From Planctomycetia bacterium (GTDB taxonomy: Bacteria > Planctomycetota > Planctomycetia > Pirellulales > Thermoguttaceae), in NCBI GenBank assembly GCA_030527015.1, contig JAUNBR010000008.1, forward strand, positions 1 through 64,000: a DNA stretch of 64,000 nt. The letters are read 5' to 3'. A program made the position numbers and the translations under genes. Numbering within the stretch: position 1 is the first letter of the stretch; every line of letters begins with the position of its first letter. Under the pieces are notes generated by a model. That model ran no database searches. It saw only the letters and a list, made by a program, of their open reading frames with translations, and was not told the DNA's origin. This document shows positions 39,514 through 49,549 of the stretch, in pieces.

Positions 39514-40653
39514 ATGAAGACGGTTACCGTATTTTTTGCACTGGAAATCGAGTCAGGCTGTTTTGAAGACATGCTTTCGGGTATTCGCAGGTCCCGGGGA
39601 GATGGTTTTGACGTGATCCAGGGACATTTCCCGGGTACCGGTTTTTTGGACACTTTTTTAAGAGGTGCATGTACGGAAAATGTTTCCGCGAAAACGGAAA
39701 AATCAGAAGAAAATTCAGAACATTTTGTTTTGAAAACCATTAATGTGAAGTCTGGTGCCTCAGATAATATTAAAACAGATGTTTCTGGAGGATCGAGAAC
39801 GGTCGGAGAGACAAAAATTTTCCATGAAGTCGGAACATCTGAGTCGGATGACGGATTAAAAGATTTTCAGAAAAATAAAAAGTCTGGAAAAACTGATGAT
39901 TCAGAGGATGTACGGAATTTTGATAGGTCTGGGAAAACTGGGAATCCTAAAACTCAAAAAAATACGGAAAGATACGGACGATTTTCAGAAAGAAAAGAAA
40001 AACAGGAAAAAAAAGAGACAGAAATTCAGATTTATGTAATCCGTACAGGAGCCGGAATGCAGAATGCGCGTGGTGCGGCAGAGGCGGTGCTCCAGGCACA
40101 CCGGCCAGATTTTGCGATTTCGGCTGGTTTCGCGGGTGCTCTGACACCGAATTTCCAAAAATCAGATCTTTTTTTCCCCACGGAAGTGTGTGATGAAATG
40201 TTTCGGCTGATTTCGCTGAAACATTTTCCGGACGAGATTCTGAACGCTAAAGAATTCCGAAAAAATGCGGTATGTGGAGGGCGCCTCCTGACATTTCCGG
40301 CGGTCGTGGCGAGTTTTCAGGAAAAGGAAAGATGTGCCCGAGAATTCACGGCTCTGGCGGTGGATATGGAAACGTATGCGCTGGCGGACGTGTGCCGGGA
40401 AAGGAAAATTCCACTGTACTGTGTCCGCGCGATGAGTGATACGCTGAAGCAGGAAATATCAAAAGATATTCAAAAAATTGTTGGACAAAAAACTTTTATG
40501 GCGCAGCTGGGTGCGGCGGTGCGCACGGCGGTGCGGCGGCCGGGAAGTATTTTGGAAATGGCTAAATTACGAGAAGATTCTCTTGCGGCGTCCGTGCGTC
40601 TGTCGGAAATTGTGGAAAAAACGATTAAATTCTTGTGTGCGCATGAGAGATAA
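39514..40653 (+). CDS. Nucleoside phosphorylase / MTA-SAH nucleosidase family protein with low-complexity insertion
   Basis: The 379-aa protein belongs to the PNP_UDP_1 superfamily. The core strands are TVTVFFALEIESGCFEDM at the N-terminus, IYVIRTGAGMQNARGAAEAV, FAISAGFAGALTPNFQKSDL and the signature FTALAVDMETYALADVC with the conserved VDMET. Residues about 52-169 are a hydrophilic Lys/Glu/Ser/Thr-rich insertion absent from normal family members, with no hydrophobic core, so it is probably disordered. Substrate cannot be assigned: purine nucleoside, methylthioadenosine and hopanoid-related phosphorylases share these motifs. It forms a two-gene unit with cysS. A TPE copy begins 19 bases after the stop. 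Confidence 0.85.
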   Translation: MKTVTVFFALEIESGCFEDMLSGIRRSRGDGFDVIQGHFPGTGFLDTFLRGACTENVSAKTEKSEENSEHFVLKTINVKSGASDNIKTDVSGGSRTVGETKIFHEVGTSESDDGLKDFQKNKKSGKTDDSEDVRNFDRSGKTGNPKTQKNTERYGRFSERKEKQEKKETEIQIYVIRTGAGMQNARGAAEAVLQAHRPDFAISAGFAGALTPNFQKSDLFFPTEVCDEMFRLISLKHFPDEILNAKEFRKNAVCGGRLLTFPAVVASFQEKERCAREFTALAVDMETYALADVCRERKIPLYCVRAMSDTLKQEISKDIQKIVGQKTFMAQLGAAVRTAVRRPGSILEMAKLREDSLAASVRLSEIVEKTIKFLCAHER

Positions 40654-40672
40654 TATTTTATGTTTATATGTT

Positions 40673-40776
40673 TATACCCGATACACTATAAAATTTTACT
40701 TCCTCGGCATTTTGCTTCGATGAAAATGCCTGCTTTTAGAGCCGCATAAAACGGAAATTTAAAGTGGTACCAGTAT
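40673..40776 (-). repeat. TPE copy
   Basis: Near consensus: TATACCCGATACACTATAAA, arms GGCATTTT and AAAATGCC around GCTTCGATG, right end GTGGTACCAGTAT. It starts 19 bases after the phosphorylase stop. Confidence 0.94.
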
Positions 40777-40982
40777 CCATAAAAGATAATGTAACGGAAT
40801 ACATGATTTTCGATTTCATTTTTTACATTTCTTTTTTCGTACGGTTCCGTGTTCAGACATTTTATCCCACATGCGGCCAGGCAGAGGCGTAAAGTTTTGG
40901 ACTGACGGCGGGCAGGGAGGAGAAAAAATTTGGACAGAGGAGAAAATATTTATAGTGCACCGTGTGTGAAAAGCTCTGAAAA

Positions 40983-40997
40983 CTGACAAAATGTCAG
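40983..40997. promoter_or_regulatory. Palindromic candidate operator or enhancer site
   Basis: CTGACA and TGTCAG are perfect inverted repeats with a 3-base AAA spacer. The site lies about 106 bases upstream of the sigma-54-like -24 element, a normal distance for an enhancer-binding activator. The function is inferred. Confidence 0.4.
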
Positions 40998-41102
40998 ATA
41001 AAGGAGACGAAAAGATACGAAAAAATCAAAAAGTATCAAAAAAAGATAAAAAATTCTAGATAAAAAGTGAAATTTTCTTTGGTTCACTGGTTATTTTTTC
41101 TT

Positions 41103-41118
41103 TGGCACGGATTTTGCT
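41103..41118 (+). promoter_or_regulatory. Sigma-54-type (-24/-12) promoter of groEL1
   Basis: TGGCACG (41103-41109), a 4-base spacer and TTGCT (41114-41118) match the sigma-54 consensus TGGCACG-N4-TTGCW exactly. The predicted start is near 41130, giving a leader of about 280 bases before groEL1. Known sigma-54 promoters need an AAA+ activator bound upstream; the palindrome at 40983-40997 is a candidate site. Confidence 0.65.
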
Positions 41119-41179
41119 TTATACTTCTATTATCTTATCCTGCTGACATTTCGGCATGTTTCTGAAAGATATAAAAAAG

Positions 41180-41216
41180 CTGGTATTTCCGGGAACTCAG
41201 AATTCTGAAGTACCAG
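41180..41216 (+). promoter_or_regulatory. Hairpin in the groEL1 leader
   Basis: CTGGTATTTC (41180-41189) pairs with GAAGTACCAG (41207-41216) with one G-T pair, around a 17-base loop that contains the palindrome CAGAATTCTG. It is not followed by a T tract, so it is a leader structure rather than a terminator. Confidence 0.45.
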
Positions 41217-41412
41217 GATATTTGGCGATTCAGATAAAATAAGGGTAAGAGTGTTCTGGAAAAGCAGAAGGTTTTCCTGTATTTCAGAGCACGGATTTCG
41301 GGTTCAGATGCTCGAAATTTCAGAGAGAAGTTTCCTGGAATCATAAAAATTAATATTTTTCGTTTTTTATTTTGTTAATTAAAGAGTTCGCCAGCAACAG
41401 GAGGTATCTACT

Positions 41413-43089
41413 GTGGCTAAAAAAATGGTGTTTGAGGACGAGGCACGCCAGCCGATTTTGGATGGTGTCCAGAAGTTAACGCGCGCGGTCCGCAGTACGT
41501 TAGGTCCACGTGGTCGTAATGCAGTGCTAGATAAAGGATGGGGCGCGCCGAAAATCACAAAAGACGGCGTGACGGTCGCGAAGGAAATCACTTTAGATGA
41601 TCCGGAAGAAAACTTAGGTGCGCAGTTAGTGAAAGAAGCGGCCAGTAAGACGAATGACGTGGCGGGGGATGGTACCACCACGGCGACGGTTCTTGCGGAA
41701 GCGATTTATGCGGAGGGGCTTCGGCTGGTGACCTCTGGCGGTGTAAATCCTGTGTCGTTACAGCGAGGTATCTTAAAGGCTGCGGATGCAGTGATCGCTA
41801 TGATCGAAAAGTCGGCGAAACCGGTGGATGAGAAGAGTAAAAAGGAAATCGCGCAGGTGGCGGCGATCGCTGGGAATAATGATCCTGAAATCGGGAAAGA
41901 TTTAGCGGATGCTTTCGTAAAAGTCGGGAAAAATGGTGTGGTGACGGTGGAAGAAGGTCGGGGCGCGGAAACCACGGTGGAATTCGTGGAGGGAATGCAG
42001 TTTGACCGCGGCTTTTTATCGCCACATTTTGTAACGAACGAAGATAAGCAGATCGTGGAGCTGGAGAATCCATATATTCTTTGTTATGAAGAAAAAATTT
42101 CTGGCGCGAAGGCTCTCGTGCCGTTACTGGAGGCTCTCAGTAAGACGAATAAACCTTTAGTTATTATCGCAGAGGATGTGGAGGGGGAAGCCCTGGCGAC
42201 TCTCGTGGTAAATAAACTGCGTGGTATTTTGAATGTTTGCGCGGTAAAAGCTCCGGCGTATGGTGAGCGAAGAAAGGCCATGCTGGGAGATATCGCGACT
42301 CTGACTGGCGGAAATGCTATTTTTAAGGATCTGGGCATTCAGCTGGAGGCCGTTCAGCTGAAGGATCTTGGCCGGGCGAAGAAAGTCGTGGTGGGAAGTG
42401 ATTACACGACGATTATTGATGGTGCGGGGTCAAAAGAAGCGATTTATGGCCGTGCGGATCAGATTCGGGCGGAAATAGAAACCACGACCAGCGATTATGA
42501 TCGTGAAAAGCTGCAGGAACGTCTGGCGAAACTTGCCGGCGGTGTGGCGAAAATTATGTGTGGCGCGGCGACAGAAACGGAAATGAAAGAAAAGAAATTC
42601 CTTCTGGAAGATGCATATCACGCGACGAAAGCGGCTCTGGAGAAGGGTATCGTTCCCGGTGGTGGAGTGGCTCTTATCCGTGCGGCGGGTGCTGTGGATA
42701 AGCTGAAGCTGGACGGTGATGAAGCTCTGGGAGCACAGGTTCTGAAACGTGCTCTGTCTGTTCCGCTGAGAGAAATCGCAGAAAATGCTGGTGTGGACGG
42801 CGCAGTGGTCGTGAGCCGAGTTTCTAAAATGAAAGGAAAAACGGAAGGATATGACGCGGATAAGGATAAGTACTGTGATCTGATGGACGCAGGAGTAATT
42901 GACCCGGCGAAAGTCGTCTGTACTGCTCTGCAGAATGCTGCGAGCGTCGCGGGTTTACTGCTGACGACTTCCTGTCTGATTACGGATATTCCGAAAGATG
43001 AGCCGGAAGCTCCTGCTGGTGGCGGCATGGGCGGCGGTATGCCAGGCATGGGTGGTATGGGCGGCATGGGTGGTATGCCCATGATGTAA
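41413..43089 (+). CDS. groEL1: Chaperonin GroEL, paralogue 1 (GGM-tailed)
   Basis: The 558-aa chaperonin forms the 60-kDa ring that folds proteins with GroES. Motifs are [20 protein letters not shown], the ATP-binding [57 protein letters not shown] and [13 protein letters not shown]. The C-terminus ends in a GGM-rich tail ([13 protein letters not shown]), as in the housekeeping GroEL of many bacteria. The start is the GTG at 41413, eight bases after AGGAGG. No groES is attached; it stands alone behind a sigma-54-like promoter. A second GroEL lies 1.4 kb downstream. Confidence 0.97.
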
Positions 43090-43903: not shown

Positions 43904-44005
43904 TATGCTGGTTCCACTTTAAATTTCCGTTTAGTGCTGTTCTGAAAGCAGGCATTTTCAGCGAAGCTAAATGCCGGTGAAGCGGAAATGGTGAATCGGG
44001 TATAA
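43904..44005 (+). repeat. TPE copy
   Basis: Near consensus: TATGCTGGTTCCACTTTAAA, arms GGCATTTT and AAATGCC around CAGCGAAGCT, right end AATGGTGAATCGGGTATA with a short deletion of ATTTATAG. Confidence 0.93.
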
Positions 44006-44192: not shown

Positions 44193-44489
44193 ATGAGTAT
44201 TAATTTACGTCCTTTAGATGATCGAATTGTCGTGAAGCCGATGGAAGCTGAAGAAATGACCGCGGGAGGAATCGTGCTGCCGGATACCGCGAAAGAAAAA
44301 CCCCAGCGTGGTACGGTGGTGGCCGTGGGGCCTGGAAAATTACTGGAAAACGGCACACGTGGTGAATTATCTGTCGCGGTGGGAGATGAAGTAATATATG
44401 GAAAGTACGCGGGCAGTGATATCGAAGTGGGTGGTGACGAATACAAAATTCTTCGTGAAACGGACGTTTTGGCAAAACTCGTAAAATAA
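44193..44489 (+). CDS. groES: Co-chaperonin GroES
   Basis: The 98-aa protein is the heptameric lid of the GroEL chamber. It has the conserved start [20 protein letters not shown], the mobile loop [40 protein letters not shown] and [13 protein letters not shown]. The ATG at 44193 has AAGGAG upstream. groEL2 begins 43 bases after the stop, so the two form the usual operon. Confidence 0.98.
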
Positions 44490-44532: not shown

Positions 44533-46152
44533 GTGGCTAAACAATTATTGTTTGATGATGCGGCACGGCAGCGAATGATGCGTGGCGTAAATAAGTTGGC
44601 GGATGCGGTGGCCGTAACCATGGGGCCCACGGGAAAGAACGTGATCATAAATAAGACTTATGGTGGTCCTCAGGTCACGAAAGATGGCGTAACGGTCAGC
44701 GGAGAAATTGAGCTGGAAGACCGTTTTGAGAATATGGGCGCGAAACTGGTGAATGAAGTCGCGCAGAAAACGAATACTGTCGCGGGAGATGGGACGACGA
44801 CAGCGATCGTTCTTGCGCGTGCGATTCTTAAAGAAGGTTTAAGAAACATCACGGCGGGCAGTAATCCCACGGCCATACGCAGAGGAATCGAGATCGGCAC
44901 GAAAGCTGCGATTTCGCAGTTATATTCGTTCGCGAAGAAAGTGACGACGAAAGAGCAGATCGCGAATGTCGGAGCGATTAGTGCGAATAATGATCGGGAG
45001 ATCGGGAAACTTCTGGCGGACGCGATGGAAGCTGCGGGAAATGACGGCGTGATCACGATCGAGGAAGGAAAAACGGCCGAAACGACATTTACCGTCGTGG
45101 AAGGAATGCAGTTCGATAAGGGGTATCTCTCACCGTATTTTGTAACACGGCCAGATACCATGGACTGTTATATGGAAAATGCACTGATACTTCTGCATGA
45201 GAAGAAAATTAGTAACTTACGGGAACTGGTTCCTCTGCTGGAGAAAGTGATTCCGACAGGGCGTCCACTTTTAATTATCGCGGAAGATATCGAGAATGAA
45301 GCGCTGACGACGCTTGTGGTGAATCGGCTGCGTGGTACACTGAATATTTGCGCGGTAAAAGCTCCTGGTTTCGGTGATCGTCGGAAGGCCATGCTGAAGG
45401 ATATCGCGATTCTGACGGGTGGTGAAGTGGTCAGTGATGATCTGGGCATTAAACTGGAAAATGTCGGTCTGGATATGCTGGGTTCTGCGAAGCAGATTAC
45501 TGTCACGAAGGATGATATAACGATCGTTGAAGGTGCGGGCAAGAAATCGGATATTAAAAAGCGTATCGATCAGTTACGTGAAATGATCGAGAATACGGAC
45601 AGTACGTATGATCGGGAAAAATATCAGGAACGCCTGGCGAAACTTTCCGGGGGAATCGCGGTGGTACAGGTCGGTGCCAGCACGGAAGCGGAAATGAAGC
45701 AGAAGAAGGCGAGAATAGATGACGCACTTCATGCCACACGCGCTGCGGCGGAGGAAGGCATTTTGCCCGGTGGTGGAGTGGCACTTCTCAGAACACGAGA
45801 GGCCGTGGAAAAGGCGCGCGAGAAAGCCCGCGGTGATGAAAAAATCGGAGTGGATATTATTTTACACTGTCTGAGTATTCCGCTGGTGACGATCGTGAAT
45901 AATGGTGGCGGAGACGGAACTGTCGTGGCGGATATCGTGCGGGAGAAGAGTACGAATGTCGGTTATGACGCGAATTCGGAAGAATATGTAGACATGTTTA
46001 AAGCCGGAATTATAGATCCGCTGAAAGTCGTTCGGACCGCGCTGGAAAACGCGGCCAGTGTGGCAGGGCTTATGCTTACCACAGAAACCATGATCACGGA
46101 TTATGATAAAGAGGATAAGGCGAAACAGAGTATCGAATCGGCTGTCATATGA
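44533..46152 (+). CDS. groEL2: Chaperonin GroEL, paralogue 2 (no GGM tail)
   Basis: The 539-aa chaperonin is co-operonic with groES. Motifs include [20 protein letters not shown], the ATP-site [57 protein letters not shown] and [13 protein letters not shown]. The C-terminus ends [16 protein letters not shown] and lacks the GGM repeat of paralogue 1. GroEL paralogues without this tail often serve special clients or stress conditions. The start is the GTG at 44533 after AAGGAA. Confidence 0.97.
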
Positions 46153-46208: not shown

Positions 46209-46335
46209 TATATCACGATTTACTATAAATTTCCATTTTTCCAGTCTGCTGTCCGGCGGGCCGGCTTTTTTGCTTCACTAAAAATGCGTATTTTCAGAAC
46301 TGCAAAACACGGAAATTTAAGGTGGGATCAGCGTA
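46209..46335 (-). repeat. TPE copy with enlarged hairpin
   Basis: TATATCACGATTTACTATAA at the left, a CTGTCCGGCGGGCCGGC insertion before the hairpin, and GGAAATTTAAGGTGGGATCA at the right. Confidence 0.78.
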
Positions 46336-46682: not shown

Positions 46683-46698
46683 TGTTTTCACTTTATTT

Positions 46699-46804
46699 TA
46701 TACCCGATGCATCATAAAATTCCGCTTCTCCGGCATTTTGCTTCACTGAAAATGTCTGCTTAAAGAGCCGCATAAAACGGTAATTTAAAGGAGAATCAGT
46801 ATAT
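46699..46804 (-). repeat. TPE copy
   Basis: Near consensus: TATACCCGATGCATCATAAA, arms GGCATTTT and AAAATGTC (one G-T pair) around GCTTCACTG, right end GGAGAATCAGTATA. Confidence 0.93.
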
Positions 46805-48919: not shown

Positions 48920-49112
48920 AACGGAAAGACGTTTTTTCATTATGTCGGAAAATGATACCTGGCGTATGTGACAGGTTTTCCTTTAAATTTCCGTCCTGTG
49001 CGGCGCTTAACGCGGGCATTTTCAGCGAAATAAAATGTCTGCCTGCCGGCGCACGGGGGGAGTGGAAAATCATCGTGCCTCGGGTATAAAATTTTATTTT
49101 GTATAGCATTTC

Positions 49113-49138
49113 TTATTTTTAGGAATGCCGTTTTTTTT
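49113..49138 (+). terminator. Intrinsic-terminator-like hairpin, array unit 1
   Basis: AGCATTTCT and AGGAATGCC pair around TATTTTT and are followed by a run of eight T residues after one G. It lies about 190 bases after the grpE stop and could end the dnaJ-grpE transcript. The same structure recurs in the next two units. Confidence 0.55.
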
Positions 49139-49323
49139 GCTCTGGTAAAATAAAAATTTACCGTGTGTTAAGAAGAGTAAAAAATTTAAATTATGCTGGT
49201 GTTCCTGTAAATTTTCGTTTTTTTTAGCTCTTTATGCGGGCATTTTCAGTGAAAAAGTGTCTGCCTGCCGGTGCATGGGGGGAGTGGAAAATCATCATGC
49301 CTCGGGTGTAAAATTTTATTTTG

Positions 49324-49359
49324 TATGGCATTTCTTATTTTTAGGAATGCCGTTTTTTT
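49324..49359 (+). terminator. Intrinsic-terminator-like hairpin, array unit 2
   Basis: GGCATTTCT and AGGAATGCC pair around TATTTTT, followed by G and nine T residues. Confidence 0.5.
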
Positions 49360-49549
49360 TTGCTCTGGTAAAATAAAATTTTACCGTGTGTTAAGAAGAG
49401 TAAAAAATTAAATTATACTGGTGTTCCTGTGAAATTTCCGTTTTTTTGTAGCTCTTTATGCGGGCATTTTCAGTGAAAAAAGTGTCTGCCTGCCGGCGTA
49501 CGGGGGGAGTGGAAAATCATCATGCCTCGGGTATAAAATTTTATTTTGT

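Follow-up and report, generated by a model that had tools for sequence, protein, structure and literature searches.

Sites for sigma-54 are predicted to be enriched before genes of the GroEL, GroES, DnaK, GrpE, DnaJ and IbpA families in Planctomycetota and Bacteroidota, according to a 2025 study that cites Studholme and Dixon 2004 on Pirellula (PMC12316311). That study reports statistical enrichment only and mentions no upstream activator site (UAS), whereas the present analysis describes a palindrome, its spacing, a genus-specific variant of it and a candidate activator. The authors of PMC12316311 state that the assignment of activators to promoters is not known for all organisms, and their account includes sigma-54-dependent grpE/groES in Bacteroides thetaiotaomicron and Flavobacterium psychrophilum, which resemble the locus studied here in the sigma-54 control of chaperone genes but belong to a different phylum. 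In Rhodopirellula baltica, the available text of PMC2754498 gives Cpn60, Cpn10, GroEL, DnaJ, GrpE, DnaK, Hsp20 and ClpB as heat-induced and rpoN as not induced, with no known heat-shock sigma gene responding. This is the same kind of gene set as that found here, but the regulator was left open and, within that text, no sigma-54 enhancer was proposed. In the sigma-54/AtoC system of Chlamydia, hrcA-grpE has a sigma-54 promoter and is heat induced, and HrcA/CIRCE also acts on dnaK and groESL (PMC8762339), whereas no CIRCE element was found in the window (the whole 64-kb stretch of DNA analysed here).

The features of the locus are as follows.

40983..40997, no strand assigned: palindrome CTGACAAAATGTCAG, the putative UAS (enhancer) at which a sigma-54 activator would bind
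41103..41118, + strand: putative sigma-54 -24/-12 promoter, TGGCACG-GATT-TTGCT (TGGCACGGATTTTGCT)
41129..41412, + strand: predicted long, strongly structured 5' leader of groEL1
41413..43089, + strand: groEL1 (Cpn60; Pfam PF00118), GTG start, the putatively controlled gene
44193..44489, + strand: groES (Pfam PF00166)
44533..46152, + strand: groEL2 (Pfam PF00118)

In a pattern scan, TGGCACGGATTTTGCT matched 12/12 defined positions of TGGCACG-N4-TTGCW, including the GG-N10-GC core. It was the sole match on both strands of the window, where dinucleotide shuffles expect 0.01. The -24/-12 match claimed in the preliminary description is confirmed. Scaled to the 3.84-Mb genome, the chance expectation rises to ~0.6 matches of 12/12, and one such match is therefore by itself suggestive rather than decisive. 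The distance of 310 bp from the site to the groEL1 start codon is greater than in relatives and counts against the assignment. Transcription is predicted to start near 41129. The chance expectation would suit an explanation in which the match is accidental and transcription of groEL1 depends on a housekeeping promoter of the sigma-70 type, as would a TTGACA-N18-TAGAAT-like stretch downstream of the site in one genus mate (G017). Against it, a scan of 40640-41450 for TTGACA/TATAAT returned two weak minus-strand matches only and none on the plus strand, and the site recurs at every orthologous locus compared, with a paired palindrome and an own-genome regulon (below); we regard this explanation as very improbable.

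In other phyla groEL is usually controlled by HrcA/CIRCE or by sigma-32. Classical heat-shock control of this kind, with the sigma-54 site in a secondary role, would follow that precedent, and in Chlamydia hrcA-grpE is preceded by a sigma-66 and a sigma-54 promoter in tandem, with HrcA control besides (PMC8762339). However, the window contained no match to CIRCE (TTAGCACTC-N9-GAGTGCTAA, up to 3 mismatches) and none to the exact form of the sigma-32 consensus pair (CTTGAA and CCCCAT separated by 11 to 17 nt), and there is little probability that groEL1 is governed in this way.

Orthologues of groEL1 (71–86 % identity) were found in 60 of the 61 family genomes hit, in the same genus and in other genera of the family. 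The 500 bp upstream of the gene was compared at 30 loci, the window's own among them. A sigma-54 site scoring 10–12/12 was present at 30/30 loci, mostly at -96 to -223. Only 124 of 3000 shuffled controls (4 %) scored 10 or more, and neither the reverse strand of the 500-bp upstream regions nor any groEL1-groES intergenic gap scored above 9. This difference settles the question against a chance origin of the site. No recognisable site was seen in G019 and G046, both incomplete assemblies, the G019 contig ending soon after; in G046, a genus mate, the GG of the site is absent, which counts against the sigma-54 reading.

The preliminary description had also pointed to a CTGACA/TGTCAG palindrome about 106 bases upstream, which proved to be real. 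It reads CTGACA-AAA-TGTCAG, and 106 bp separate the end of its core from the T of TGGCAC, a distance expected of a UAS (~80–150 bp). When inverted repeats upstream of the site were sought without a preset motif, TGCCA-N3-TGGCA stood out; of 27 non-redundant loci, 19 carried it in perfect form. Symmetry and position are conserved in 28/30 loci, where CTGCCA-N3-TGGCA or a close variant lies 85–116 bp (mostly 98–100 bp) before the -24 box. Among loci of equal spacing, enhancer and promoter columns were 94–99 % conserved and the intervening columns ~50 %. The window palindrome (TGACA...TGTCA) equals the consensus element with one symmetric substitution per arm; the form in the window's genus is a variant that has drifted from TGCCA-N3-TGGCA to TGACA-N3-TGTCA. 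An unusual arrangement occurs in the genus mate G017, in which TGCCA-N3-TGTCA stands 1 bp before the -24 box, an odd geometry for an enhancer that is seen twice, at groEL1 (L011) and at groES-groEL3 (L316), and that also counts against the sigma-54 reading. Sigma-54 promoters need an AAA+ activator to fire and are silent without one, and the conserved palindrome at 40983-40997 is therefore best read as the predicted binding site of the activator.

The preliminary description had further suggested that sigma-54 control explains a groEL gene without a groES partner. This is wrong, since groES directly follows groEL1 in relatives, at 72–244 bp in 26/28 loci, and the gap in the window (1,103 bp) is merely widened. 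From this spacing, groEL1 heads a groEL1-groES-groEL2 cluster; reading of the ORFs places dnaJ and then grpE after groEL2. A dispersed repeat of ~64–106 bp has one inverted copy inside the widened gap; the repeat occurs in both orientations at 40671-40776, 43904-43982, 46268-46331 and 46697-46802. Sequence resembling this repeat also flanks the activator gene in L002, and repeat units ~222 bp apart lie behind grpE at 49032-49480. Compared with shuffles, the predicted leader of groEL1 is far more strongly folded (z-score -3.4) and may provide a second, RNA-level layer of control. A terminator-like hairpin is located at its start, at 41141-41156.

The genome was searched over 3.84 Mb for TGACA-N3-TGTCA followed within 60–140 bp by GG-N10-GC. 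Exactly three palindrome and box pairs were found, and the reversed control gave zero. One is the groEL1 pair in the window; the others are:

contig C39: pair before groES-groEL3; site 11/12, gap 74
contig C58: pair before dnaK (dnaK start at C58:910); site 10/12

Perfect CTGACANNNTGTCAG occurs in only two copies in the genome, each before chaperonin genes. The groES-groEL3 pair (L085, G000:C39) shares its contig with a gene for a GAF-type sigma-54 activator, and groES3 at this locus encodes a protein of 111 aa whose N-terminal extension is rich in Cys. A search of the 61 family genomes for the consensus pair returned 36 matches, and the reversed control none. The genes behind these 36 pairs were groEL1, dnaK, groEL3 (with or without groES) and hsp20, the assignment in G023 (L048) being tentative as the contig ends inside the gene. 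A wider scan for the consensus pair, covering one genome per species for 84,980 species, gave at least 119 loci. Among those listed, 70 had a chaperone gene match within ~900 bp downstream (dnaK 32, groEL 28, hsp20 5, clp 4 and groES 1), many of them in Planctomycetota. The matches listed include groEL1 of Blastopirellula marina, dnaK of Candidatus Kuenenia stuttgartiensis and groEL of Scalindua, and chaperone genes of Poribacteria, KSB1 and Puniceicoccales. The other 49 listed loci come from many different phyla and resemble background. The few Bacteroidota pairs listed (L124, L148, L151, L155 and L209) included none before chaperone genes. In Nitrospirae-like genomes (L130 and L175), a palindrome/-24/-12 pair directly follows an activator gene. 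Sigma-54 control of a chaperonin, which the preliminary description had considered unusual, looks common for chaperone genes of Planctomycetota, and its prediction in bulk already stands in PMC12316311.

A search of the genome for rpoN and for AAA+ activators had been proposed at the outset. By profile search of the contigs, rpoN is present and intact on C112 (PF04552, E 1e-61; open frame of 504 aa), and five PF00158 proteins were found. L002 is of the GAF type, L003 and L004 are response regulators, L005 (G000:C126) has the architecture FHA-GAF-AAA-HTH, and L006 is, on our reading, RtcR-like. The motif GAFTGA is found in L002, L005 and L006, and GAFTDA in L003 and L004. No perfect copy of the palindrome lies in loci L001-L005, and autoregulation, with the palindrome beside its own activator gene, was rejected as an explanation; the L004 locus has one 9/10 palindrome match, with no box reported.

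The FHA-GAF protein L005 is our candidate for the activator of groEL1 across the family, at slightly better than an even chance. This rating reflects its wide presence and the covariation of its recognition helix with the palindrome, set against counterexamples. Proteins of the L005 type were found in 57/61 family genomes and are missing from G019 and G046, the two incomplete assemblies in which no recognisable site was seen. Their recognition helix is near invariant, being IERSTLDRKIRRY in most genomes and IERTTLDRK in the window's genus and some others. The third palindrome base was changed in at least one arm in 9/11 T-helix genomes and 7/36 S-helix genomes (Fisher P=3e-4, uncorrected for kinship). 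In the activator tree the window's genus branches from within the S types, so that its T change is separate from that of other T types. G051, with an S helix yet an altered palindrome, is a counterexample to this association. In one family genome (G025:C13, L289), a shortened L005-type gene, apparently without the FHA domain, lies ~8.5 kb from groEL1.

The promoter may instead be real and served by another enhancer-binding protein, either the response regulator L004 or the GAF protein L002, to which we give somewhat less than an even chance. L004-type proteins are likewise widespread, L002 and the groES-groEL3 promoter are ~3 kb apart on contig C39, and in one Planctomycetota genome (L132) a gene for a response-regulator activator stands immediately before the palindrome/-24/-12 pair of dnaK. 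Outside Planctomycetia, moreover, chaperone genes are preceded by the palindrome where no clear L005-type orthologue was found, and no single recognition helix was shared among the 14 genomes compared there. Against these points, an L004-type orthologue was not found in G009, G032, G043, G044, G048 and G060, and the retention of both palindrome and box in four of these six weakens that candidate; close relatives of L002 are confined to a minority of the family, and L002 was rejected as a universal regulator; and in G019 and G046, the incomplete assemblies from which the L005 type is missing, no recognisable site was seen.

With L005 as the favoured candidate, conservation, the own-genome regulon and the presence of rpoN and activators together give strong support to the sigma-54 promoter and upstream activator site first proposed for this locus. 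On this genomic evidence, sigma-54 and an AAA+ activator at the palindrome very probably drive groEL1 as part of a small chaperone regulon. RNA polymerase containing sigma-54 would transcribe groEL1 from 41103-41118, starting near 41129, and the enhancer-binding protein would sit on 40983-40997 and contact the polymerase at the promoter through DNA looping. The regulon would consist of groEL1, groES-groEL3 and dnaK here, with hsp20 and clp genes elsewhere, and TGCCA-N3-TGGCA would usually lie 85–115 bp before the -24 box. Proteotoxic or heat stress would be the trigger. Closed complexes of sigma-54 are inert without activator, so that stress would work through the activator and not through sigma levels. 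The induction of chaperones but not of rpoN by heat in Rhodopirellula baltica, as given in the available text of PMC2754498, fits activator activity as the switch.

The sigma-54 control of chaperones is thus already known as a bulk prediction, and what appears to be new is the common palindrome, its geometry and the regulon. The open-access literature yielded no account of the palindrome or its fixed spacing, and none of its chaperone specificity or its activator; part of this may already stand in papers under subscription, Studholme and Dixon 2004 in particular. A joint reading, which we offer tentatively and which may well fail in part, is that a dedicated sigma-54 enhancer system, with TGCCA-N3-TGGCA as its palindrome, controls the core heat-shock response in Planctomycetota and in some Poribacteria, KSB1, Verrucomicrobiota and other lineages. 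The phosphothreonine-binding FHA domain of the activator in Pirellulales would couple Ser/Thr kinase signalling to chaperone synthesis, and in the window's genus enhancer and helix would have evolved together towards a new specificity.

The control of heat shock in Planctomycetota has been open, and the compact and highly specific enhancer-promoter pair before groEL, dnaK, groES and hsp20 provides a testable answer. The pairing of palindrome and promoter is specific enough for members of the regulon to be found by pattern search alone. If the proposal is true, the core of the heat-shock response would be an activator-gated sigma-54 system, in contrast to the usual models based on sigma-32 or HrcA.
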